DNA of 64,000 nt from Sorghum bicolor (lineage: Eukaryota > Streptophyta > Magnoliopsida > Poales > Poaceae), in assembly GCF_000003195.3 (NCBI RefSeq), contig NC_012871.2:44124434-44188433 (forward strand), written 5' to 3'. Positions 1 through 54,659 of this stretch are shown here, one piece after another. The notes beneath the pieces were generated by a model. That model ran no database searches, had not been told where the DNA came from, and saw only the letters and a list, made by a program, of their open reading frames with translations. Position 1 is the stretch's first letter. Every line of letters begins with the position of its first letter. The translations under genes were made by a program, and so were the position numbers.

Positions 1-2227
1 TTCAGGGAGTAATCCGGATCAAATTGGCCGATTCTTCGAGACTCTGCATGAGGGTTTGGCCAGGGATGAACGACCATGGTTGGCTTATGATGAACCAGAT
101 AGCATGCTCCCTCTGACCTTCAATCCATTTGATGAAGCTCTCGATAGGGATAATGAGGCGATGATGGCAATTGTGACTCCCAGAGCCATTCCAGTGAATA
201 TTTTCGGTAGCACAAAAACTTCTCCCCAGACTTACGAATTTTACAATCCATCGGCATTAGCTCGCCAGTTAGCTTTCGGCCAGTTGCCGATTGCACTTCC
301 TTATGCCGATGTGATAAAACCCAGAGAAACCATCAACAACCTTCTTGAGTGGACTCGAGTAGCCCAACTACCACCAAACGCCGATGTAGATGTAGATCTG
401 TCAGAATGGGTTCCGGCTGCTTTTATCACTCAGGCATACAAGTTATGGTGGGCAGAATGGAAAGAGCATCTATTCTGCAGATCGGCACTTTCATACCGCA
501 GCATGATTGACCCCGAATACGAAGTTCCCGATGACACTGTAAGTAACTCAAACCAACGTTTCATTTTCTCACTATTACTTCCATCGACAGCTTACCCTTG
601 TATTCCTTTTGCAGGCTGACAATATTCCTCCATCGGTTAGCAGGAGTGGCAAGCCGATCGACTTGTTTCCATCAGGCCCGATTTCCTCAATCGGCCACAA
701 TGCTCCCACTCTGGCTTCCATCGTGCATCGGGGTGTGCGCCTCAGGAAAGTTACAACCAGGAGAACCCAGACATCACCAACGGTAGCTGCTCCCACTCTG
801 GCGCGGGCTTTCAAGGCAATTTGTCAAATCTTTATCTTTTACGCTGACTATCTTTATATCGGTTTTATTTATACTTATAAACCTTTGTTCGTTATTGCAG
901 CAAATCAGTGCATCGGCAAAGGTCACACGTCAAGGTGCCGATGCCACCCAGTCCAGCCAGCCAAAGAGGAAGGGTACCACGGGTGCTAAGACTGGAACAA
1001 AGCGCCAGAAGGTAGCAACTCCCCCTCCTCCTCCGGTATCTCCAATTCCGGTGGAGTCTTCTCCTTCTCCAGAAGCCCAGCCACAGCAAGCACCATCTCC
1101 CCAACCTATGCAGGAAGCACCACAGATAGAAGAACCCCAACAGGAAGGATCTCAAACAGAAGGTACATCAGCTGACACGGGTGAACAAACAACTGGCCCG
1201 GTGGGCCCAATTATACCATCGGCAGTTCTCCCGATTCAGACAATTGTTATCCCTCCTCCAGGTAACATACTTTAACAATATCGCTACCGATGAACTTATT
1301 CTCATTTAGTCTCATAACCTTTCTTGTCTTCTTTCAGTCGATATCGTCCCATCGGCAACCTTAGCCGATCAACCTGTAGTTCCATCGGCATCTTTGGCCG
1401 GTCAGCCCGCAGCTCCGTCAGCACCTCCCAGTCCAAGGCAAGAGATCGCCTTGAAGCAAGTAAGTCACTGTTTACCGCCAGCATTATTTGCCGATTCTCT
1501 AAGTATGGGCTAATTTTGCTTTCCCTCCCAGGAACAAGATTCTCCCGATAGCCTGTTCTCCTTCGCCATCGATTTCTCTGAAGAAGAAGGTGAAGAAGCA
1601 AGCACTTCTCAGTCGGTCGGCATCACATCGGCAGAGGTCAGGGTCAGGCTGGAAGAATTGTCAGCTCTCCTTCACCAGGACACAGCGCAATTGGTTGATG
1701 ATTCCGACCCTACCAAGACCCTGTTCAGAACTCTCAGAGGCCAAGTCCCAGCCGATGTTGAAGAAATCCTGTTCCAAGCCGCTCATCTGGAGAGTCGCCA
1801 GCTGCAGTACCAAAGAGCTTCTCGGCGGCTTGCCGATAGAGCCGCTCAGACTCAACTCTCCGATGAAATGAGGAAAGAAAAGCTTTTGACCGATGAGAAG
1901 CACAAGAACATCGGCATCCTGAGATCTTCTGGAGACGCGCTAAAGCAGAAGATATCCGATCTATCGGCAAGAAAAGAGTCCCTATTGGCGGAGCTTAAGG
2001 AAGTAGAGAACGCTCTGTCCCAAGCCCAACAGGAAGAGAGCCAATTGCCAGAGACCATCAGGCTTCTTGAGCGCGATCGAAATGCTCATGGTCGCAAAGC
2101 ACTCCAACTGAAGAAGAAGCTGAAGCCGATAGAAGGTTCTGCTGATGATGACATCAAGGAGATAGAAGCAGCCAACCAAATTCGGCTACGCGCTATATCG
2201 GCAATCCAGACGCTGCTTAACACATAG
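1..2227 (+). CDS. Antisense multi-exon gene of the Tat element: plant mobile domain end plus coiled-coil tail
   Basis: The frame is open from the left edge, so the start is off the window. Proposed exons are <1-539, 615-about 808, 901-1261, 1338-1459 and 1532-2227. Clear GT-AG introns are 540-614, 1262-1337 and 1460-1531. The second intron (about 809-900) has a good acceptor (TTATTGCAG) but its best donor reads AAG/GCAATT, a GC donor, so that boundary is uncertain. The first exon resembles the C-terminal part of the aminotransferase-like plant mobile domain (PMD): PWLAYDEP, YNPSALARQ, then WVPAAFITQAYKLWWAEW. The middle is proline-, serine- and glutamine-rich with a basic KRKGTTGAKTGTKRQK patch, possibly a nuclear signal. 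The last about 190 residues form a charged coiled coil. The gene converges on pol; stops are 153 bp apart. PMD-like extra ORFs are known in Tat elements; their function is not established. Confidence 0.7.
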
Positions 2228-2280
2228 AGTTTCCATCGGCATTGTATCTGCGCTTTCCTGCTTCCTCAGCTTTTAATCTA

Positions 2281-2370
2281 GCCGATAGGACTGTTATCGG
2301 CGCCTAAACTTTTGAAACACCAAGTCTTGTCCCCAAGCATTTGGATCCAGCCGATAGGAGTGTTATCGGC
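2281..2370. terminator. Two copies of a GCCGATA...TATCGGC hairpin between convergent genes
   Basis: At 2281-2301 and again at 2350-2370 the sequence is GCCGATA, seven bases, TATCGGC: a perfect 7-bp inverted repeat. The two copies are 69 bp apart and each is followed by the same CCTAAACTT context (one base varies just before it), so they are a tandem duplication. They lie between the stop of the antisense gene (2227) and the stop of pol (2381), where both transcripts must end. A role in 3' end formation for both strands is inference; the element's ATCGGC motif forms both arms. Confidence 0.5.
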
Positions 2371-2380
2371 ACCTAAACTT

Positions 2381-5300
2381 CTATGCATCGACCCATATAC
2401 TGGGGTAGTACTTCTTTAAATATTTGCCGTTTAATGCTCTGGGAAATTCAATTCCTTCGAGGGTTTCTAGAATGTAGGCATTGCCAGGAGCCGATCGACT
2501 TATCCGATAAGGACCCTCCCAATTAGGAGACCACTTTCCAAACTTCGAGCTTTTTGTCCCAACTGGTAAAATTAATTTCCATACCAAATCCCCATCGGCA
2601 AACTCTTTAGCCTTCACCTTCTTATCGTACCATCTAGCAATTCTTTTCTTATTCTCTTCTATACTCATTAAAGCTTTTAACCGATGCCCTGCTAGATCGT
2701 CCAATTCATCGGTCATCAAAGTGGCATAACCATCGGAAGTTAATTGATCTTGAAAAGATAATCGCCTAGATCCAGCCTTAATTTCCCAAGGCAACACTGC
2801 ATCATGTCCATACACCAATTGATAGGGTGATACCTTGGTCGATCCATGACAAGCCATCCGATAAGACCACAATGCTTCATTTAATAATGTATGCCACCGC
2901 TTAGGATTTTCTTCAATCTTCCGTTTAATAAGCTTGATAATTCCTTTGTTAGACGCTTCGGCCTGCCCATTGGCTTGAGCATAATAAGGAGAAGAATTCA
3001 ACACTTTAATTCCCATACCGATTGCGAATTCATCGAACTCCCCCGATGTGAACATGGTGCCCTGATCGGTAGTAATCGTTTGGGGAATCCCAAATCGGTA
3101 AATAATATGCTCCTTCACAAAATCAATCATATTGGCCGATGTGACTTTCTTCAAAGGAATAGCTTCAACCCATTTAGTGAAATAGTCAGTGGCAACTAGA
3201 ATGAACTTATGCCCTTTGCTAGATGGTGGATAAATCTGGCCGATCAGATCGATGGCCCATCCCCGGAACGGCCAAGGCTTTATTATAGGATTCATAGCCG
3301 ATGCGGGTACTCTCTGGATATTACCAAACTTTTGACAACCTTGACATCCCTTGAAATATTTAAAACAATCTTCAAGTACGGTTGGCCAAAAATATCCATT
3401 CCTTCGAATCATCCACTTCATCTTAAAAGCTGACTGATGCGCTCCACACACTCCCTCATGAATTTCCCCCATCAAACTTCTGGCTTCATCATCACGCAAG
3501 CATCGGAGAAGAATTCTGTCGATAGTTCGATAATACAATCCATTTTCAAGGAGCACATACTTGGTTGCCTGAAATCGAACCCGTCTTTCAACTTTTTTGG
3601 ATGGATCTTTTAGATAATCAATAATTTCTTTCCTCCAATCATCGGCACCGACTACCGATGTCGCATTAATCATTGGCTGATATCCCGAGGCATGCTGAGC
3701 TAACCGATTAGCGTCTTCATTATGCAATCGGGGAACATGCTCCAATCGGAAATCCTTGAATTCCTTTAACAGTTGCATACTTCTCTCGAAATACGTTATG
3801 AGAACTTCACTTCGGCATTCATAGCTTCCGGCCAATTGATTTATAACCAACATAGAATCCCCGAATATTTCAACAGCATCAGCACGAACTTCTCTCAGCA
3901 ACTCCAATCCCTTGATCAGAGCTTGATACTCAGCCTGATTATTTGTCGATGTGGCAACAATCGGCAAGGAAAACTCATACTTCCTCCCCTTAGGGGAAAC
4001 TAATACAATGCCGATTCCTGCCCCTCGGTCACAAGTAGATCCATCAAAGAAGAGCGTCCAGGGTACAATTTCCAAGGTTTCCACTAGACCGCAATGCTGA
4101 GTTACAAAATCGGCCATAATCTGCCCTTTGACTGCCTTAGCCGATTCGTAACGCAAATCGAACTCCGACAGCGCTAAAATCCATTTACCGATCCTACCAC
4201 TCATAATCGGCATAGATAGCATGTATCGGACCACGTCATCTTTGCAAACGACAGTGCATTCGGCCGATAACAGGTAATGTCTCAGCTTGATACATGAAAA
4301 ATATAAGCATAAGCATAGTTTCTCAATGGCCGAATACCTGGTTTCAGCATCAATCAACCTCCTACTCAAATAATAAATTACCCTTTCTTTCCCTTCAAAT
4401 TCTTGAACTAAAGCTGAACCGATAACCGATCCATCGGTAGATAAATACAATCTGAAGGGCTTCCCTTGTTGAGGTGGAACTAGAACTGGAGGATTTACTA
4501 GATACTTCTTGATTTCATCCAGAGCCAACTGCTGTTCTTCTCCCCAAATAAACTCTTGATCGGCTTTCAATTTAAGAAGAGGACTGAAAGCACGAATCCT
4601 ACCAGACAAATTCGATACAAATCTTCTGATAAAATTTACCTTGCCGATCAAGGATTGGAGCTCGGTTTTGTTGGTAGGGGCCACTATTTTATTGATGGCA
4701 TCAATAGATCTTCGACTAATTTCAATACCCCTCTGATGTACCATGAAACCAAGAAACTGCCCTGCCGATACACCAAATGCACACTTGTTGGGATTCATCT
4801 TCAATCCATGCTTCCTTGTGCACTCTAACACTTTTTGTAAATCGGCAAGATGCTTTGAGAAATCTCCAGACTTAACCACCACATCATCAATATAAATCTC
4901 TACGAGCTTGCCGATGAACTCATGAAATATAAAATTCATAGCCCTTTGATAAGTAGCACCAGCATTCTTCAACCCAAAAGTCATGACTATCCATTCAAAT
5001 AGCCCAACATGACCAGGACACCTGAATGCGGTTTTTGGAATATCCTCCTCTGCCATGAATATTTGATTGTAACCTGCATTACCATCCATGAAGCTGATGA
5101 CCCGATGGCCAGCCGCAGCATCAACCAGTAGATCGGCGACAAGCATTGGGTATCCATCCATCGGCGTAGCTTTATTGAGATTCCTGAAATCAATGCACAC
5201 CCGAAGCTTCCCGTTCTTCTTGTAAACCGGAACAACATTGGAAATCCATTCGGCATACCGACACTGCCGAATAAACTTAGCTTCAATAAGTTTAGTGATT

Positions 5301-5473
5301 TCGGCCTTAATATCAGGTAGAATGTTAGGATTACATCGGCGGGCTGGTTGCTGATGTGGCCGAAATCCAGACTTGATGGGTAACCGATGTTCAACAATTG
5401 ATCGGTCTAAACCAGGCATCTCTGTATAGTCCCAAGCAAAGCAATCTTTATATTCCTTTAACAAACTAGTCAA
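2381..5473 (-). CDS. pol: Tat-lineage pol: reverse transcriptase, RNase H, second RNase H, integrase
   Basis: The 1030-residue frame from its first Met makes the enzymes that copy element RNA and insert the DNA. Reverse transcriptase covers roughly residues 40-290, with the catalytic YIDDVVVKS. The first RNase H follows (LYLSTDGS, about residue 350). A second, archaeal-type RNase H starts near residue 475 (LFFDGSTCDRGAG, NNQAEYQALIKGLELL, DANRLAQHAS). Integrase has the H-H-C-C finger near residue 680 (HEGVCGAHQ, CQGCQKFG), then the DDE core: Asp in AIDLIG, Asp in TTDQGT, Glu in GQAEASN. Catalytic residues look intact. The frame is open upstream to about 5590 without a Met. At about 5540 conserved pol N-terminal sequence changes frame by one base, so either a frameshift joins gag-protease to pol or this copy carries an indel. 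I judge an indel more likely. Confidence 0.93.
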   Translation of the reverse strand: MTSLLKEYKDCFAWDYTEMPGLDRSIVEHRLPIKSGFRPHQQPARRCNPNILPDIKAEITKLIEAKFIRQCRYAEWISNVVPVYKKNGKLRVCIDFRNLNKATPMDGYPMLVADLLVDAAAGHRVISFMDGNAGYNQIFMAEEDIPKTAFRCPGHVGLFEWIVMTFGLKNAGATYQRAMNFIFHEFIGKLVEIYIDDVVVKSGDFSKHLADLQKVLECTRKHGLKMNPNKCAFGVSAGQFLGFMVHQRGIEISRRSIDAINKIVAPTNKTELQSLIGKVNFIRRFVSNLSGRIRAFSPLLKLKADQEFIWGEEQQLALDEIKKYLVNPPVLVPPQQGKPFRLYLSTDGSVIGSALVQEFEGKERVIYYLSRRLIDAETRYSAIEKLCLCLYFSCIKLRHYLLSAECTVVCKDDVVRYMLSMPIMSGRIGKWILALSEFDLRYESAKAVKGQIMADFVTQHCGLVETLEIVPWTLFFDGSTCDRGAGIGIVLVSPKGRKYEFSLPIVATSTNNQAEYQALIKGLELLREVRADAVEIFGDSMLVINQLAGSYECRSEVLITYFERSMQLLKEFKDFRLEHVPRLHNEDANRLAQHASGYQPMINATSVVGADDWRKEIIDYLKDPSKKVERRVRFQATKYVLLENGLYYRTIDRILLRCLRDDEARSLMGEIHEGVCGAHQSAFKMKWMIRRNGYFWPTVLEDCFKYFKGCQGCQKFGNIQRVPASAMNPIIKPWPFRGWAIDLIGQIYPPSSKGHKFILVATDYFTKWVEAIPLKKVTSANMIDFVKEHIIYRFGIPQTITTDQGTMFTSGEFDEFAIGMGIKVLNSSPYYAQANGQAEASNKGIIKLIKRKIEENPKRWHTLLNEALWSYRMACHGSTKVSPYQLVYGHDAVLPWEIKAGSRRLSFQDQLTSDGYATLMTDELDDLAGHRLKALMSIEENKKRIARWYDKKVKAKEFADGDLVWKLILPVGTKSSKFGKWSPNWEGPYRISRSAPGNAYILETLEGIEFPRALNGKYLKKYYPSIWVDA

Positions 5474-5612
5474 TTGTCGCTTACACTCAGGATCTAATTT
5501 AGCACTAATAAAAGTAGGCCTAGGCTTATCACCACACCTATATCTACTTCTACCAAATCGTCGGCCGATGTGAATCCCTGGCCTAATTTTCCATCATCGG
5601 CGAATCTATCCA

Positions 5613-8600
5613 TTAAAAATCGTCGTCAGAACCGACTGCTTGGATCGGTGGAATCTCATAATCGGCAACTTTGAGAAAATCTTTCTCCCAAACTTCTCCT
5701 GAAATGCACCTGGTCCTTTCGTAAGTATCCGCTTCTACCGATGCGATAACATAAGAAGAATCTCCTGGGACAATCTCAATCTTGTCACCTACCCACTGAA
5801 CCAAGCACTGATGCATTGTAGATGGGACACAACAATTGGCATGAATCCAATCTCTTCCCAATAATAAGTTGTAGGCACCTTTTCCGCTGATCACGAAAAA
5901 AGTTGTCGGCAAGGTCTTGCTGCCGATGGTCAACTCTGCACATATCGCCCCCTTGACTGGAGACACGTTTCCTTCAAAGTCTTTGAGCATCATATCGGTC
6001 TTGGTCAAATCTTGATCCCCTTTCCCAAGCTTCCGATATACTGCATACGGCATAATATTAATAGCAGCTCCACCATCAACTAGGATCTTGGTCATTGGCT
6101 GCCCATCAACCCTTCCTTTGAGGAACAGAGCTTTAAGATGCTGCCTCTCGTCATCGGCAGGTTTCTCAAAGATAGCCGTCATCGGATCCAGAGCCAACTG
6201 AGCTATCTGATCAGAAAATTCCAACTCATCATCACTGGCTGGTGCAAGAAACTCCATCGGCAACATGAAGACCATGTTGACGCTTGCCAATGGACCTTCC
6301 CTCTTAGTGTCTGACGGCTGCCGACTTCCAGAGTTCTCTCCCTTGTTTAGCTCTTCTTGCCTTTCACGTTGCAATCTCCTTTTCTGTGTTTTGGTTAATC
6401 CTCCAGGGCACCATGGAGGAAGTGGCCTTTGCCTTGCCATCGGGCGTCGGTTCTCCCTTGACTCCATACGATGCGTGTTAGCATCCCTGCAAAATATGAA
6501 TTCATCGGGAACCCGCGCATCAGCCATTCCCTTGAGCTCCTCTTGGTTCCTGGGAAAATACTGGACACGGTCACTAAGTCTGTTGTGCCCACTAAATCTG
6601 CCCCCCAGCCGGTCTTGAACTGACACCCTTCCTCTGATCGGCCCATTAAATCGCCGTTCATCATCATGATAATGCTGATCGATCCTATCGTACCGATCAT
6701 AACCGTTGCACTCAGGGCAGTCTCTGACAGTAGGAAGCTTGATATTTTCCTCCCAACAATGGATGAAGAATGGACAATTCCAATGATCCCTGTGCCGATT
6801 CCACTCCTGTCGGCGTCTTTCTTCTTCCCGTCGATAATCTTCCTGCTGGCGCCGATACCGATCTTCCCGTTGTTGCCATTTTTCTCGAGGCCTTCTATGA
6901 GTTATGACGATACCAGATCGAGGAAGCCTTCCTGAGCTAGTTCCTTCCTGGACCAAGCCCTTACTTCTTGCATCGGCAGTAGTAACTTGATGCTGAGGAT
7001 CTACCGATGCACTCTTCTCAGCTGTCTCCGATGTTAAGACCTTAGCCTTCCCCTTAGCATCCAACATGTTTGTCGGGAAAGGATGTTGGTCTATCTTCAT
7101 CGGCTTCTGGGCTTTGGAATTGTCAAACTTGATTCTCCCTGACTCTATAGCCGATTGCAGCTGCTGTCTGAATACTTTGCAGTCGTTGGTGTCATGGGAC
7201 GTTGCATTATGCCACTTGCAATATCTCATCCTCTTCAACTCTTCTGCCGATGGGATCACATGGTTAGGTGACAGTTTGATCTGACCTTCCTGAAGTAGAA
7301 AGTCAAATATCCTATCAGCCTTAGCGGTGTCAAAAGCAAACTTCTCTGGTTCCTTCTGCCCAAAAGGACAAGACATCGGCTTCTTGTTTTTTACCCACTC
7401 TGCCAAACCGATTACTGGTTCTTCATCAGAATCTGAGCTTGTGGCTTCATCAACAAACGACACTTTCTTATTCCATGCTCTCTTAGGCTCGAAAGACTTG
7501 ATGTCTTGATCAGAAATCCTCTGCACCAAATGACTTAAACTTTCGAACTCCTGAGAGGCATACTTATCCCTGATATGTGGCAACAAACCCTGGAAAGCCA
7601 AATCGGCTAGCTGCCGATCATCCAGAACCAGGCTATAGCATTTATTCTTAACCTCTCGTATCCTCTGCACAAATCCTTCAACCGACTCATCATTACGTTG
7701 CCTCAACTTGACCAAGTCGGTGATCTTCTTCTCATGAACCCCCGAGAAGAAGTATTTGTGGAATTGCTTCTCCAGATCGGCCCAAGTAATTACTGAGTTG
7801 GGAGGTAATGATATGAACCAAGTAAAGGCCGATCCAGACAATGATGACGAAAATAGACGAACCCTCAATTCGTTCCTGTTACCAGCCTCTCCACATTGAA
7901 TAATGAACCTGTTGACATGCTCCATAGTTGACGTGTCGTCCTGTCCGGAAAACTTTGTAAAATCCGGTACCTTGTACCGATGTGGAAGCGGGATCAAATC
8001 ATACGCGGGAGGATACGGTGTCCGATAAGAATAAGTGTTGACTTTGGGTTTTATCCCAAATTGTTCCCTCATTACTTCAGCAATCTTATCGGCCCAATAC
8101 GCATCGGCATCTTGCCGATGAGGCGGCTGCGGATCTGGCACTTGGTGGCGAACCTCCACGTGTCTGTTCGGGACGTGATCTGCATGGAACATTGTATTGA
8201 TCACCTGTCCTCCAATCTGCGGACCACCAAACTGCTGTCCACCGATTGGCTGTCCTCCGAGTTGCTGTCCAAAATTCATTGGCTGGTTGGGAATCCCCTG
8301 ACCTTGGAACCCGGGATAGACCTGCCCTTGCTGGAACCCTGTAGTCTGATAACCCTGCTGGGGCGATTGTGGAAAGGCTTGCTGCCCAAGCCATCCATTA
8401 TTAGCGTTCATCGGCATAGGTGCTGCCGATGATTGGTAATTGGGTACCGTCGTTGAATTGACATACCCCGACTGGGCCATAGGCCTCTGTTGCATCAGCA
8501 TTGACTCTGCCGATGCGTTGGGCATCTGGAACATTGAATCTTGAGGATTCCCAGTGTGAGGCCTTGCAGTAGTAGTTGTGGTATACCGAGGACTCTGGTT

Positions 8601-9251
8601 CACCGGCGCATTGGGAGGTGCCGATGTCATAGGAGTTTGTGATGTTATTTGTGATGTTCCCGGCGTCAACTCTGGAGGCATACCATAACCCCACCAGTTG
8701 GGAGGAAGAGTCAACCCTGACATTGCCGATGCCAACATATCTGTTGTCAGTTTATGCTGCCCAACTGAAATTTGTGGGTTGGTTGCCATCGGCATAGATA
8801 GTGCACCAGTAGTCCCCGATGTACTTGGAGGGACGGCAGGTTGTGCTCTTGCATTCGTCAAGGCAGCCGATGGAGCCGTGACCTCTGGTGCCGTTGGCTG
8901 ATGATGGGAGGGCCCCACATAATCTGGCGGGATTTGTCCTTCCTTGAAAGTTCTTGCCACGGCATTGAAAACCGTATTAGACAGTACACCAGCTTGGTTA
9001 ATCAACGCTCGATTGATGGCATTGTCAACCATATCTTGAAGCTTGCCAGGATTGGCGTCAAAGGTGACCTGCCGTGGTGCCGGCAGTGCATCTTTCTGGA
9101 CCACTTCGCCACTCCTGTTTATGCTGAAAGACCTCAGGCATTGCTGCTTGAACTCTTCCATGGCTTGGGCAATAGCTTGCTTCTGCTCATCCTTGAGGTT
9201 GGCCTCCGTCACAGGGATGACGTTCTCTTGATCGAGGTCAGAGATCGACAT
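5613..9251 (-). CDS. gag: Tat-lineage gag-protease polyprotein
   Basis: The start at 9251 (MSISDLDQEN) is chosen because a further in-frame extension runs back through the primer-binding site into the LTR. The product, about 1212 residues, would form the particle capsid and carry the aspartic protease that matures it. After a glutamine/glycine/proline-rich N-terminal third (repeats like GGQPIGGQQFGG) comes the gag capsid region (KVPDFTKFSGQDD, FISLPPNSVITWADLEKQFHKYF). Two degenerate zinc-knuckle-like clusters follow (CKWHNATSHDTNDC and the HCW...CPECNGYDRYD region), then a very basic Arg-rich stretch. The protease lies near the C-terminus: ILVDGGAAINIMPY holds the active site as D-G-G, usual in this lineage rather than D-T/S-G, and LLLGRDWIHAN is the second conserved block. 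There are no internal stops. It ends 22 bp before pol opens, in another frame. Confidence 0.92.
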   Translation of the reverse strand: MSISDLDQENVIPVTEANLKDEQKQAIAQAMEEFKQQCLRSFSINRSGEVVQKDALPAPRQVTFDANPGKLQDMVDNAINRALINQAGVLSNTVFNAVARTFKEGQIPPDYVGPSHHQPTAPEVTAPSAALTNARAQPAVPPSTSGTTGALSMPMATNPQISVGQHKLTTDMLASAMSGLTLPPNWWGYGMPPELTPGTSQITSQTPMTSAPPNAPVNQSPRYTTTTTARPHTGNPQDSMFQMPNASAESMLMQQRPMAQSGYVNSTTVPNYQSSAAPMPMNANNGWLGQQAFPQSPQQGYQTTGFQQGQVYPGFQGQGIPNQPMNFGQQLGGQPIGGQQFGGPQIGGQVINTMFHADHVPNRHVEVRHQVPDPQPPHRQDADAYWADKIAEVMREQFGIKPKVNTYSYRTPYPPAYDLIPLPHRYKVPDFTKFSGQDDTSTMEHVNRFIIQCGEAGNRNELRVRLFSSSLSGSAFTWFISLPPNSVITWADLEKQFHKYFFSGVHEKKITDLVKLRQRNDESVEGFVQRIREVKNKCYSLVLDDRQLADLAFQGLLPHIRDKYASQEFESLSHLVQRISDQDIKSFEPKRAWNKKVSFVDEATSSDSDEEPVIGLAEWVKNKKPMSCPFGQKEPEKFAFDTAKADRIFDFLLQEGQIKLSPNHVIPSAEELKRMRYCKWHNATSHDTNDCKVFRQQLQSAIESGRIKFDNSKAQKPMKIDQHPFPTNMLDAKGKAKVLTSETAEKSASVDPQHQVTTADARSKGLVQEGTSSGRLPRSGIVITHRRPREKWQQREDRYRRQQEDYRREEERRRQEWNRHRDHWNCPFFIHCWEENIKLPTVRDCPECNGYDRYDRIDQHYHDDERRFNGPIRGRVSVQDRLGGRFSGHNRLSDRVQYFPRNQEELKGMADARVPDEFIFCRDANTHRMESRENRRPMARQRPLPPWCPGGLTKTQKRRLQRERQEELNKGENSGSRQPSDTKREGPLASVNMVFMLPMEFLAPASDDELEFSDQIAQLALDPMTAIFEKPADDERQHLKALFLKGRVDGQPMTKILVDGGAAINIMPYAVYRKLGKGDQDLTKTDMMLKDFEGNVSPVKGAICAELTIGSKTLPTTFFVISGKGAYNLLLGRDWIHANCCVPSTMHQCLVQWVGDKIEIVPGDSSYVIASVEADTYERTRCISGEVWEKDFLKVADYEIPPIQAVGSDDDF

Positions 9252-9276
9252 GTTGATCTTGATCTTGAATCTGTCC

Positions 9277-9294
9277 CACTGGGCGTGCCAAAAG
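9277..9294 (-). other. Primer-binding site of the Tat element
   Basis: Just inside the 5' LTR the minus strand reads TTTTGGCACGCCCAGTGG, starting with the TGG expected opposite a tRNA 3' CCA end and separated from the LTR by three bases. It lies between the LTR and the gag start, the expected place. I do not name the tRNA: the match is not one I can verify by eye. Confidence 0.7.
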
Positions 9295-9297
9295 ATG

Positions 9298-9995
9298 TGT
9301 TGATGCAAAACTGATCTGCAAACACAAAGGGCTAATACCCGATTCAAACGTTAAGGCGTGCCAGCCGATTTGACCTTACTATCGGCAAAGGTGATAACTC
9401 GAATACTTTAGTCCTGACAACAGCGATGCGCCCGGATGTCACGGCTAAGAGGTACTCACGCGGAACTCGAGAACACGCCGAGCTTAAGTCGACGAATTCC
9501 TAAGAACTCGTAATAAAAAGAAAAAAAGTATGACGAAGTCGTCGAAAAGTAGATGCTGGAATATGAGTAAAAACGCGTGTTTGATTGATTTCTTGATTAA
9601 TTATTACAAGGCCCTAGGGTTTATATTTATACCCTGCTCAAAGAGCTACAACCAGACACGATTAGAATTCGAATTCCAAATTACACGGAATCCGTATACA
9701 AAACGATGCAAATAATTAAGGAAACAACAAAACTATCCTTCGTGACAAACCGAAACTCCTCCACATGACAACTGGCAGCTTCCGGACTCCTCCTTTGCAT
9801 CATCGGCAATCCCTTTGCCATAGTCATCGGCAGACCTTTTTATCCAGCCATCGGCACCATATTACTGCCTGTGGACTTAGTCACATTCAACTTCTCCCTC
9901 ATCGGCAACCATCCTCATCGGCAACCCGCTTTGTAAACATCGTACTGCCACCTTATCCTGCCATCCTAGACACGTGCCCAAAAACGGTGTCAACA
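9298..9995 (-). repeat. 5' LTR of the Tat element, 698 bp
   Basis: On the minus strand the LTR opens with TGTTGACACC (9995 leftwards) and closes with GCATCAACA (ending 9298), so its ends form the TGTTGA/TCAACA inverted repeat. The boundary fits the PBS three bases inside. The U3 part (9795-9930) holds five copies of an ATCGGCA-containing octamer in about 130 bp. Confidence 0.85.
9620..9633 (-). promoter_or_regulatory. TATA box of the Tat 5' LTR
   Basis: The minus strand reads GGGTATAAATATAAACCC, a strong plant TATA box, about 365 bp inside the LTR from its U3 end. This is the expected promoter of the genomic RNA. Confidence 0.65.
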
Positions 9996-49749: not shown

Positions 49750-50748
49750 TTTCGACGAAATCTAGTCGGCAGTCTACCTTGGGGTATACCCAGTGTTCGC
49801 CTAAACGGCCTAAACGGCCGATTAAACGGTAAACGGTGGCAAACTGTTTTGTTTAGGGGGTAAACGGGAAATTAAACGGTTGACCGTTTAAACGGTCAAA
49901 AAACGGGGAAAACGGTCTAAACGGCCTACACGGAACGGTTGTAAACGGTGTTAAACGGCTGTTTAAATGGCCGTTTAGGCAAACACCAGGTGAATCTAGT
50001 TGAATTTTATATTAACAATTTGTATACTTAAATTTATTATATTTATAAATATATAAAATTGATTTGTTATATGCATAAATATGTATATTTAATTATTCTA
50101 ACATGCATAAACATATATACATAATAAAATAAATGGATTTTAGTTGCATAAATATGTATAAATGATAGAATGATTGATTTTACATTAAAAATATGAACAT
50201 TTTTGTAATATTGTGTAAAACCGTTTAGACCGTTTTAATCCGTTTAAACACCGTCTAAACAGTTTAAACGCTAAACGAAGGGTGACCGACTGTTTACCGT
50301 TTAGCGTTTAGGATAACATTGGGTATACCAACAGTAGTAGTTTATCGATAGGCAGGTGTGCAAGCTACAAACTCGATGGTGACGCAAAACACAGACAAGG
50401 ATTTTATCTAGGTTCGGCCATCGTGTGGGCGTAATACCTACGCCCTGTGTCTGATTGTATTGATCTGAGATGAGTTGAATTGTGTATGACCTAAGGGGGT
50501 CCCTTGCCTCTCCTTATATAGTCCAGAGGGCAGGGTTACATATCTGGAAACTAATCCTAGTTGGTTATAATTGCCATTAATCTAATATCAATCCCTATTC
50601 TAAACGACTAGAATCTTGCTTGATCTCCATGTCTTGTTTCCTTGCGCAAAACTCCAAACTGTTGGATCAAGCTTCAAGCTGCCTTGTAATGGGCCAAATC
50701 TCCTGGCCCAAGTCTAGGCGTAAGGGTATAGGGGTTTATACCCCCACA
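49750..50748 (-). repeat. 3' LTR of element G, interrupted by a hAT element
   Basis: Minus-strand LTR start at 50748. It is contiguous around the hAT insertion (49791-50321) plus one copy of the GGTATACC duplication. The end at 49750 is a break, not a clean CA terminus. Confidence 0.55.
49791..50321. mobile_element. Non-autonomous hAT element (MITE), 531 bp
   Basis: The ends are CAGTGTTCGCCTAAACGGCC and, inverted, CAATGTTATCCTAAACGCTA: imperfect terminal inverted repeats beginning CA(G/A)TG. A perfect 8-bp target duplication, GGTATACC, flanks it (49783-49790, 50322-50329). The first 190 bp hold about 14 copies of AAACGG or its complement, with a weaker set at the other end; the middle is very AT-rich. 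There is no coding capacity. Eight-base duplications and subterminal hexamer arrays are hAT hallmarks. Confidence 0.93.
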
Positions 50749-51908
50749 GCTAGTCCCCGAGCTCCATGTATTATGATGTAACACTCCATCTCGTGCTTCT
50801 TCGACCAGTGAGGCTTGACATTTTCGACAAATAGAAAAATCACCCGAACAACTGGAGCTGTATTTTGACCAACTCTAATGACAGTTGATCAACATTATCA
50901 TCGAAGAAGCAGATTGTTCGAATAATGCATGGTGCTCTAAATCAAAAAATATTTCTTTCCTAATGAAGTGTGCCCACTTTACTTTTCGTAAGAAATATAC
51001 ACTCATAAAAAATAAGCATATTCACCGCAAGGTGAAGTGTGCCCACTTAGTCCCCGAGCCTGGTAGTAGGTGACGTAGGCACGTGGTGCAAGGGTCTAAA
51101 AAGAAAAATCCACGTAGAAATTTTGATGCTAAAATGCATCGCCAGATGCATCTTACTAATGTAGTCCCCGGGCTTGCTGGAAGGCAAAGTATGAACCTTG
51201 TAGCAAGGTCTAAAATTAAAAGTAAAATGACCTCTCACTTGCACATGAATCCAGTTCCTATGTAACTGTACGAGTAGTCCCCAAGCTGTGCTCGGAGAGT
51301 GATTGAGGAGTCCTTGAGCATGGTTGGGGATGTAATCGTGCTCGAGAATCGGCACAGTCCTCTATTTCATAAGCAGACTGGTCGACCAGTCCCCGAGCAT
51401 ACCGTGCTCGGTGGTCGGTGCAGTCCCCAGCTTCATAAACAGACTGGTCGACCAGTTGCCGAGTATACCGTGCTCGGTGGTCGGTGCAGTCTCCAGACAC
51501 TGGACAAGTCCAAACAAACTCTCCATCTCAGTAAACCCTTTGCTTGAGTTTTGAAATCGTCATGCCCCTTCATCCATTAATTTGCGATGTGACAGGGCGT
51601 CCGGCCATCTTGTCAGTCCAGCGCGTGAAAAGGAGTGCAATCTGGCAGCGCAGCCGCTCATCACGTGAACCGAATCAAAAGTAGTTCCAACAATCATTAA
51701 AAAATGTAGCAGATTTACTGCAACAAAAATTGGAAACTAAAACGCCATTCTTGCCGTATAAACCGCACATTTCCCTAAGATTCGGGAAGTGGAAGAGGTG
51801 GTTCCCTTGTTATAAATAGCCAAAGCATCATGGTACTGGATCTTCACCCACCGGTTGCATACACCAGCCTTTCGCCTTTGTCCTCCTTGCCTTCCCCTAG
51901 CCAGTTAG
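50749..51908 (+). repeat. G internal region with recurrent AGTCCCCGAGC motif and promoter of the antisense gene
   Basis: Variants of AGTCCCCGAGC recur at about 50752, 51050, 51163, 51275, 51390 and 51424. From about 51338 to 51495 they sit in a tandem unit of about 60-66 bp (about 2.5 copies) containing CAGACTGGTCGACCAG, itself a palindrome around GGTCGACC. No ORF is supported in 50749-51780. Confidence 0.6.
51811..51820 (+). promoter_or_regulatory. TATA box of the antisense gene in element G
   Basis: TATAAATAGC, followed about 100 bp later by the point where solo LTR H interrupts what would be the 5' UTR. Removing H, the first ATG would be about 125 bp downstream. Confidence 0.5.
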
Positions 51909-52512: not shown

Positions 52513-53660
52513 TCCTTCATGCAAAAATAATATTCACATAATGCTCATGCCTAAAATTTTCTGGACCCACTTTACTTCTCCATTTATTTATTTATTTTCA
52601 TCACTTCCAGTGGCATGCAGCCATTCATTCTCCCTGGCTGCACCCCACGCCTGCTCCCTTTCCTCACATGCCTAACAAAAACCATATCTCATTCTTTCTC
52701 CTTTAATTCCCAAGGTAATACCTCCCTTTAATCCTCTCTTTTGCCAACCTTTACTCCATTAGTTTGCATGCATGAACATACAGTAGCACCCCTTCTCTTT
52801 TCCTATGGCGCAACCTCCTCTTCCACATGCAAAATGGCAACATCTAATGCCTACTCTCTTAACTCCCTGGCCTAATTTCTTTTGCATGTCTCTTTCCATC
52901 TCTCTTTACTTCTCTATTTGCAGCAACCATTTTTATTCATTCGATTTTGCTCTCTCTTCAATTACATGCATAACAATATCTCCTCTCCCATCTCTCACCT
53001 AAGAAAATAGCACTCTATATGTGGCACCTCCTCTCTTTCTTCTCATGCAAAAACAGCCCCCAATGCCCACTGGTTCATCCTTAATGCCCTCCTTAATTCA
53101 GATGAGTAAAGTGCAGGCATAATTCTTTGTCTCACATTTTTGCATGCATACATGTACCTATCTTTTCTCCTACCTTTCTCCATCACGCATGCAAGCAGAT
53201 GGACAGCACCACACTGTCGGCATCTTCTCTTATGCCACCCCTTTTCTCTTCCTCCATGCAAGAGTTATGTCTACAACAATTTTCTTCTCTTAATTCCTTG
53301 CCCCATCTCATTTGCATGCCTTCCTTCATTCTATCTTTAATCCTTTCCTAATAACAGCCATATGTGCTCCTACCTTCCCTCATGCACAAGCAGAAGGACA
53401 TGCATCTCCTCCCCCGCTGCCCAAGCCATTCCTTCTCATGCAAAAAAATATATGCACCTCTTCTATACTCCTCTTAATTCCCTAGACAAACTCTCTTTAG
53501 AGTGTTTTATTTACTCCATCAATAAATCTCTTTTCTTCAAATGGTAAACATGCAGCAGCAATATTTCATCAACATGTTGCCCCTCTGCTCTCCTAATTAA
53601 TGCCGACCTTCCCCTTTTCTCCATGCAAAATGGCAGCACTTAATCCCTTGACTCACCTCT
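52513..53660 (+). repeat. Diverged about 200-bp repeats rich in CATGCA within H
   Basis: A CATGCAAAA or CCATGCAA anchor recurs near 52518, 52828, 53046, 53255, 53438 and 53622. It is usually followed about 40-50 bp later by a CTTAATTCC-type block and then TTTGCATG. The strand is extremely pyrimidine-rich. The CATGCA/TGCATG hexamer occurs about twenty times here. Confidence 0.6.
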
Positions 53661-54659
53661 CTTGTGTGCACATTTACTCCATCTTTTAAATGGCATACAT
53701 GCACACAACAAACAACCATTCCTCCTCTCATTTACTCACACATAAAACCAGCAGCCCACACCTCTCATCCTCTCTTAACTTCATTCTTTCACTCACCCAT
53801 TTTAATTCTCATCAAGTGCATGCACCCATGCAGCAAACCCACAGCTATATATACCTCCTTCTCTCTCCCTCACGCCACCACCAGAGAAGAAGCACCCTTA
53901 TCTCCTCCCCTCCCTCCATCAGATGGGCGCCCTCCTCCTCTCCTTTTACCATGGCAGCAGTTCCAACTCCCTCTCCTTCCCCTCCATCAAAACCGAAGGA
54001 AAAACGTGTCTGCAGTTCTGTTTTGCCACTGCACATCTCTTTTCGTTGCCGGATTCCTGGAATTCTTTGCATGGTGTTGCGGTAAGGATCATGGACTTAT
54101 CTATTCTTTACTGAGAAACACATGTTCATCATGTCCCCTCTCTGTTGTGATGTTTTAAGGAAAATCATGGTGATGTAGTGTGCCATGGAGATCACTCCGG
54201 TGTGTGTGTCGCCATCTCTCTGAACCTGCAGTGGAATCCTATCAACCACCATTACCGCTGCTTCTGTACATGACATGGTGATGACGCCCATCCCTTTTTC
54301 CTCTTTGTTCTTGCTGCTCAAACCCCTCTCATTCATCGCTTTGATCTTTCATGTGGCGCAGATCATCTCTGAAGTGAAATTGGCGCCATCTCATTGATCA
54401 CCAACTGTTTGCTGTCCATCATTGGTGTTAGACACCATTGAGGTCTTGTCCAGCAACCATGAACCTCGATGTGAGCCCCTCTCCCCTATCCCCATCTAGT
54501 ATACATGTTATTTTCCATAAATTGTGAGCCACAGTCCAAGTTTGATCGAATTCCGACAAAATTTCCCCTCAATTGTGTTGTTGTCTGTTTTGGACAGCGG
54601 TGCTGTTGGCGATCAGCGTTCATGATCTCCATGGATCCAATAAGCTCTATGATGAATCC

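Follow-up and report, generated by a model that had tools for sequence, protein, structure and literature searches.

We identified a dense lattice of the hexamer ATCGGC and its complement GCCGAT in a Tat Ty3/gypsy element of Sorghum bicolor. The window, the whole stretch of 64,000 nucleotides that was analysed, was G000:C2:44124434-44188433 (contig NC_012871.2). Its positions 1-9995 contain the right part of the element, with gag-pol on the minus strand. Selection maintains the hexamer lattice over the whole element, in coding and noncoding DNA. The lattice is probably (about 0.6 by our estimate) an array of double-stranded DNA binding sites for the word ATCGGY, with CATCGGCA as the commonest context. 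It would be read most likely by a PMD/DUF1409 protein that the element appears to encode in antisense.

The visible part of the element (1-9995, minus strand) contained 44 ATCGGC and 38 GCCGAT, so that strand bias was small. These 82 sites compare with 4.5 expected under a first-order model, a stronger lattice than the preliminary description had claimed; its estimate of about 27 copies in 1-2400 was exact (27). ATCGGC/GCCGAT was the most over-represented hexamer in 1-9995, and CATCGGCA occurred 31 times (0.35 expected). The same description had taken 1-9995 for the whole element, but position 1 is the edge of the window and not an element end. The element continues leftward for about 2.4 kb to an end near G000:C2:44122039 and is about 12.39 kb long. 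The off-window part (L139 3540-5933) contained 20 further sites, 7 of them in the 3' long terminal repeat (LTR). The whole element thus had 102 sites per 12.39 kb, or about one site per 120 bp.

The motif stops at the element edge, as had been proposed. Position 9995 is the true LTR end, and the remaining 54,005 bases of the window contained 18 sites (10.2 expected). The left flank (L139 1-3537) contained 0 sites in 3,537 bases. Twelve other 8-kb stretches of the window served as controls. ATCGGC was the top word in 0 of the 12, and their top scores were 6.1 to 30.2, compared with 42 to 127 in 13 stretches of the PMD family. Over the 709-Mb assembly, the pattern GCCGAT-N(0-20)-ATCGGC had 14,494 matches and its reversed control had 393.

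The sites were found in exons, LTR and intergenic DNA, as previously noted; the introns, also named there, held few (7 of 561 site-copy cells). They occupied five of six classes of frame and orientation in pol and five of six in gag. Codon bias is insufficient to account for them, as had been argued: gag and pol contained 46 sites, above the range of codon-preserving shuffles (10.0 in synonymous shuffles), with the highest z among the hexamers present. Where the encoded residues permit the word, 67 of 129 positions carry it (hexamer median, 0.065). This rate ranked second of 1653 hexamers, behind the overlapping CATCGG. Neither helical phasing nor even spacing was found, and the spacing was random-like. 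Information around the sites was small except for C at -1 and A at +6, so the sites arose singly and not as pieces of a dispersed repeat. The presence on both strands and in exons, LTR and intergenic DNA, together with the sharp edges, suggests a reader protein that recognises the element's DNA in double-stranded form. Titles and abstract openings of the open-licence PMC literature gave no description of a comparable lattice in Tat elements or other LTR retrotransposons.

Conservation of the sites

Seven family copies (E1 to E7) were retrieved from C1 in two pieces each (A and B), 84 to 98% identical to the window element. All 14 pieces contained 41 to 63 sites (2.0 to 3.6 expected). Window sites were intact in 498 of 561 cases (0.888), compared with 48704 of 68553 for all hexamers (0.71) and 4329 of 6703 for CG hexamers sharing no motif words (0.646). 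Core positions differed in 66 of 3368 cases (2.0%), flanks in 824 of 11175 (7.4%) and other CpGs in 371 of 3481 (10.7%). Each of the six core positions was 0.9 to 2.7% different, and the 24 flanking positions were 3.7 to 11.7% different. The slower divergence of motif bases supports the earlier suggestion of binding sites spread over the element. In the reverse direction, the window retained 526 of 615 copy sites, which placed the word at rank 31 among 162 hexamers (overlap of the pieces included).

The footprint was seen region by region. Differences in core and flank were 2/264 and 113/862 in the LTR, 1/204 and 68/660 in the intergenic stretch at 2228-2380, and 15/854 and 263/2823 in the antisense exons. 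They were 23/840 and 161/2800 in pol, 23/1080 and 177/3610 in gag, 0/84 and 12/280 in the gap between pol and gag, and 2/42 and 30/140 in introns. At fourfold sites of gag and pol, 21 of 418 were changed inside motifs and 749 of 6053 outside (Fisher p 1e-6, a value that takes the related copies as independent, as does the next).

A mutation bias, methylation pattern, codon usage or gene conversion could in principle preserve the word without function. The word contains CG, and the majority of sites are in coding sequence. Yet non-motif CpGs changed about 2.6 to 5 times as often as motif CpGs, fourfold sites included (fourfold CpGs, 12/259 inside motifs and 127/700 outside; Fisher p 1e-8), which does not support the mutation bias that the preliminary description had offered as an alternative. 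The flat flanks and the synonymous shuffles also speak against it. Eight LTR pairs were 0 to 1.5% different (three aligned only in part); therefore, most divergence between copies predates insertion and accumulated while the lineages were replicating and open to selection. Within LTR pairs, 1 of 94 motif CpGs and 8 of 462 other CpGs had changed since insertion, with no clear difference, as a reading without function would have it. A context-dependent neutral simulation expected 33 to 51 sites in the A pieces of E2 to E7, the six that span all 59 window sites, but 59 to 61 were observed. The largest of 300 simulations equalled the observed count for E7 A, and none reached it for the other 13 pieces. 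We regard an origin without function as scarcely credible.

Lost sites mostly became ATCGGT, ATTGGC or ATCAGC, which were also the main sources of gained sites. The sixth base of ATCGGT sites toggled in 17.5% of cases, positions 2 to 5 differed in 0.6 to 1.7% and position 1 differed in 5.1% (these counts, like those of lost and gained words, include the overlap of pieces A and B). Because the sixth base toggles while positions 2 to 5 stay, the word that is read is about ATCGGY.

Diverged relatives were retrieved by a genome search with the Miscanthus antisense protein (52 scored of 10,502 candidates). Six stretches were picked among the scored matches for their divergence. Their aligned blocks were 68 to 89% identical to the window, and pol dS (synonymous divergence) against the window was 0.39 to 1.05. 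ATCGGC was the top hexamer in all six of these PMD-bearing relatives (26 to 63 sites; 2.1 to 3.4 expected). They kept 170 of 262 window sites, compared with 10672 of 32162 for all hexamers (0.332) and 644 of 3516 for CG hexamers. Core, flank and other CpG positions differed in 117/1577, 1070/5201 and 488/1507 cases. At fourfold sites, 28 of 160 were changed inside motifs and 880 of 2569 outside; for CpGs only, the counts were 17/97 and 118/258. The lowest retention was in L140 (3/7 and 3/14).

The lattice may also be present in other plants. Residues compatible with ATCGGC ranked 1 of 2080 in the element's own protein, in 23 close proteins, in 37 from rice and in 2 from Miscanthus. They ranked 2 in 26 Lolium proteins, 10 in 36 others, 29 in 3 from Saccharum and 153 in dicots (40 of 55 dicot proteins). 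Contrasted with dicots, the ranks were 3 (own), 3 (close), 9 (rice), 55 (Lolium) and 152 (other). Without segments wholly identical to the own element, they were 1 (close, 12 proteins), 3 (Lolium), 6 (rice), 9 (Miscanthus) and 986 (dicots). Drawn from proteins alone, this is suggestive only, and neighbouring words score nearly equally in Lolium and rice. Motif sites outlasted compatible non-motif sites in residue retention (stratified p 0.0032 and 0.0002). Two of 58 control hexamers did equally well, one of which overlaps the motif, and two of six frame classes ran opposite.

Structure of the element and its antisense gene

The visible part of the antisense gene (2-2227, plus strand) contains 22 ATCGGC and 4 ATCGGT sites in 1-2227. 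It has five predicted visible exons (2-538, 615-815 or 615-782, 901-1261, 1338-1459 and 1532-2227), with no internal stop up to its own stop. Homologues from Miscanthus, Saccharum and further contigs are listed with PMD (PF10536), DUF1409 (PF07197) or both. Two of them listed with PF10536, P0001 and P0003, align to the visible product. P0001 is listed with PMD and DUF1409; a Pfam scan of it gave PMD alone. By eye, the visible product, P0001 and P0002 each have a pair of lysine/arginine clusters, separated by about ten residues, that resembles a bipartite nuclear signal. P0003 reads through intron 1, and its residues fit CATCGGCA where the window intron has CATCGACA, a possible gain or loss of a site.

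The antisense gene is under purifying selection. Its omega was 0.14 to 0.24 against the seven copies, with no stops in five and one each in E4 and E5. Against the six relatives it was 0.06 to 0.19 where dS was computable, with 0 to 3 stops per block and dS often >1.

The intergenic stretch between the convergent genes (2228-2380) contains 5 sites. Two inverted site pairs, at 2281-2301 and 2350-2370, are near-copies of GCCGATAGGAnTGTTATCGGC. Such inverted pairs (window 2281-2370) recur in the family copies. They could be hairpins, terminators or paired binding sites.

The pol open reading frame (ORF; 2381-5473, minus strand) encodes RT, RNase H, a second RNase H (RVT_3) and integrase and contains 20 ATCGGC and 13 ATCGGT sites. 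RVT_3 (476-595) sits between RT_RNaseH (337-438) and integrase (663-831), the order of the aRH of the Tat lineage. An aRH between RH and INT is reported as the Ogre/Retand arrangement in angiosperms (PMC6317226). The gag-protease ORF (5613-9347, minus strand) encodes Retrotrans_gag and an aspartyl protease. It contains 26 ATCGGC sites, with 9 ATCGGT sites in 5613-9301. Because the listed ORF begins with codons that overlap the LTR, the true gag start lies further in.

The 5' LTR (9298-9995, minus strand) is 698 bp long, begins and ends TGTTGA...TCAACA and contains 7 sites. It has a TATA-like box at about LTR position 365, numbered from 9995. A cluster of five CATCGGCA sites (9801-9923, plus strand) lies in U3, in one orientation, upstream of that box. 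These are the five ATCGGCA noted previously, at 9802, 9826, 9850, 9901 and 9917. Copies E5, E6 and E7 have the same outer LTR ends and 5-bp target duplications; the other four of the seven copies were not readable at both ends. The 3' LTR of the window element begins at L139 3540, without the outer six bases TGTTGA (L139 3535-3540) that are present in E1, E5, E6 and E7. The loss of these bases would explain why no target duplication is visible, the five flanking bases being mismatched (CTAAT and CCCTC).

The two LTRs are 99.9% identical (1 difference in 692 aligned positions), and the insertion is therefore young. The best 45 scored of 31,203 candidate pol matches in the genome were 98 to 100% identical, and 34 had no internal stops, which points to recent expansion of the family. 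No second copy was found within the 64-kb window by blastn. No loci related by pol were found in viral contigs or in the general genome-contig set, and no Tat pol was found in phage records. A triple pattern of CATCGGCA retrieved at least 120 loci in viral contigs, none matching three Tat-related proteins.

Possible readers and a second lattice

Tat elements with a different antisense gene were retrieved by a genome search for Transposase_28 (PF04195; 150 scored of 4,325 candidates), and eight stretches were examined. L146, L147, L148 and L152 have a pol 33 to 34% identical to that of the window. They contained 2 to 6 ATCGGC but 25 to 36 CGACCA/TGGTCG (4.5 to 5.0 expected). L151 aligns to L146 and contained 19 CGACCA (4.0 expected). 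Among the Transposase_28 Tat elements examined, five of six had 19 to 36 CGACCA, with 2 to 6 ATCGGC per 8 kb; the window element has 3 CGACCA. L149 and L153 had neither a pol match nor a lattice.

The CGACCA sites are also retained. A 912-residue ORF of L146 contained 10, compared with 1.9 in synonymous shuffles, and two shorter ORFs contained 4 and 5 (0.9 and 2.3 in shuffles). Among L146 to L148, which are 94 to 95% identical to one another, 22 to 23 of 25 sites were kept, compared with 0.71 to 0.77 of all hexamers. L152 (86.8% identical to L146) kept 21 of 25 sites, compared with 0.446 of all hexamers, and core and flank differed in 5/150 and 61/450 cases. From L152 to L146, 21 of 34 sites were kept, and core and flank differed in 17/204 and 90/612 cases.

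This different lattice in the same genome favours the antisense product as the binder, as the preliminary description had suggested. Two Tat groups with unrelated antisense genes mostly use different words, and the antisense product is therefore preferred to a single host factor. The link between word and antisense gene is a correlation over two lineages with one exception. The antisense PMD/DUF1409 protein would move into the nucleus, where site density would tell it which copies belong to its own family, and it would multimerise via its coiled coil. It would then keep these copies open against host silencing, as VANC does on VANDAL transposons. If the protein binds, we lean slightly towards anti-silencing as the outcome over transcriptional control or cDNA handling. 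Transcriptional activation via U3 is a possible alternative use. We give about even odds to a wider scheme, in which each Tat lineage writes a private hexamer code over all its DNA and encodes an antisense nuclear reader, ATCGGY for PMD/DUF1409 and CGACCA for Transposase_28.

A host transcription or chromatin factor may instead bind ATCGGY, and the element may use that factor to be expressed or to be shielded from silencing. The five U3 sites in the same orientation upstream of the TATA-like box are as expected for a transcription factor, and the conserved sites lie on both strands. However, conservation extends throughout gag and pol, far from any promoter, and ATCGGC was never the top word in the 12 control stretches. 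The Transposase_28 elements have no ATCGGC lattice, and since five of six use another word, a second host factor would be required. We consider a host factor rather unlikely. A host repressor is unlikely by argument, not from data, because the element would not be selected to keep the sites of its repressor.

Alternatively, gag, integrase or the antisense protein might use the lattice as a mark on the element's own cDNA or on its integrated copies, for reverse transcription, nuclear import, packaging or integration. The extent of the lattice over the whole element, its strand symmetry and the purifying selection on the element's proteins would all suit such a mark. The same symmetry (44 and 38) speaks against an RNA function, and the Transposase_28 elements also have pol, yet use another word. 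We regard this marking as improbable.

Several observations weigh against the antisense protein as the reader. The visible antisense product had no Pfam match at E 0.001, most of the PMD part being left of the window. P0001 had no sequence relative among solved structures, and AlphaFold modelled it poorly (mean pLDDT 45.5). Retention of intron sites was weak (5/7 in copies and 0/2 in relatives). In five of six relatives the antisense products were 56 to 63% identical over the first visible part and the word was unchanged, so that fast co-evolution of the VANC type is not seen. VANC targets are described as tandem repeats in noncoding DNA, whereas the Sorghum sites stand singly, most of them in coding DNA and others in the LTR. 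The DOWN motif of Arabidopsis PMD proteins, CATGCAGTTT in the MORC1 promoter, is unlike ATCGGY (PMC9899485). L150, with Transposase_28 and pol remains, contained 7 CGACCA and no lattice. The CGACCA lattice is weaker than that of ATCGGC and rests on few copies, and L146 to L148 are near-copies of one another. The strongest control stretch, with a score of 30.2 from a local cluster, falls within the range of the CGACCA lattice (15 to 44); the word of that stretch occurred in 4 half-kb bins and the CGACCA lattices occupied 8 to 14.

Other repeats were present in the window. A tandem repeat at 51366-51496 (66-bp unit) contains CTGGTCGACCAG, a palindromic pair of the CGACCA word. A dense CGTTTA/TAAACG cluster (CCGTTTA) at 49802-50601 (20 in one 8-kb stretch; 1.8 expected) resembles the Ac/Ds AAACGG subterminal repeats and is probably a small hAT element. 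Positions 52518-54068 contain 24 CATGCA/TGCATG words in about 1.6 kb; TRF output had no tandem array there.

Comparison with known systems

Ac/Ds elements have clustered AAACGG subterminal repeats, likewise a hexamer with an element-encoded binding protein (PMC3260210). Those repeats are described as transposase sites confined to the last 200 bp of each end (PMC3260210), whereas the Sorghum sites occur in all element regions.

Among the extra domains of Gypsy elements, PMD is reported to be the most frequent (PMC9289625), and the PMD-A clades are reported to be encoded exclusively by such elements (PMC5418596). PMD was found in 57% of Ogre elements, whereas 23% of Retand elements had Transposase_28 (Neumann 2019, PMC6317226). 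The PMD proteins MAIN and MAIL1 resemble the proposed reader in their ties to silencing and to a short DNA motif (PMC7156037, PMC9899485). Direct recognition of the DOWN motif is one among several models in those reports (PMC7156037, PMC9899485).

In recently active Retand clusters, antisense coding regions occurred in all and Transposase_28 in 97%, with DNA binding predicted (Vicient 2025, PMC11963269). The antisense product of Grande, GENE23, is nuclear (Vicient and Casacuberta 2020, PMC7264820). Like the Sorghum element, Retand and Grande belong to the Tat lineage and have an antisense gene that lies between pol and the 3' LTR, with a predicted DNA-binding or nuclear product and a proposed regulatory role. 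They differ in that the Sorghum gene is of the PMD/DUF1409 type, not Transposase_28, and the available text of those reports describes no target word or element-wide lattice (PMC11963269, PMC7264820). The available literature describes the antisense genes of Tat/Retand elements as being of unknown function. The lattices supply a candidate target sequence for two classes of antisense protein in these elements.

A further likeness is to the VANC/VANDAL anti-silencing system of Arabidopsis, where a mobile element likewise has an extra protein and many copies of a short motif. VANC21 binds the 9-base motif YAGTATTAY, which comes in a C type and a T type according to its last base (PMC5735166, PMC10398659). 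These types are similar to the last-base toggle of ATCGGY in the Tat element. VANDAL elements are MULE-type DNA transposons, whereas the Sorghum element is an LTR retrotransposon. The targets of VANC21 and VANC6 differ, whereas the ATCGGC word, for which binding is inferred, is stable across diverged families. If the proposed reading is true, the retrotransposon carries a distributed self-recognition label, and selection for protein binding acts within the coding sequences of gag and pol. The sequence-specific recognition of self that VANDAL DNA transposons show would then extend to an abundant class of plant LTR retrotransposons.

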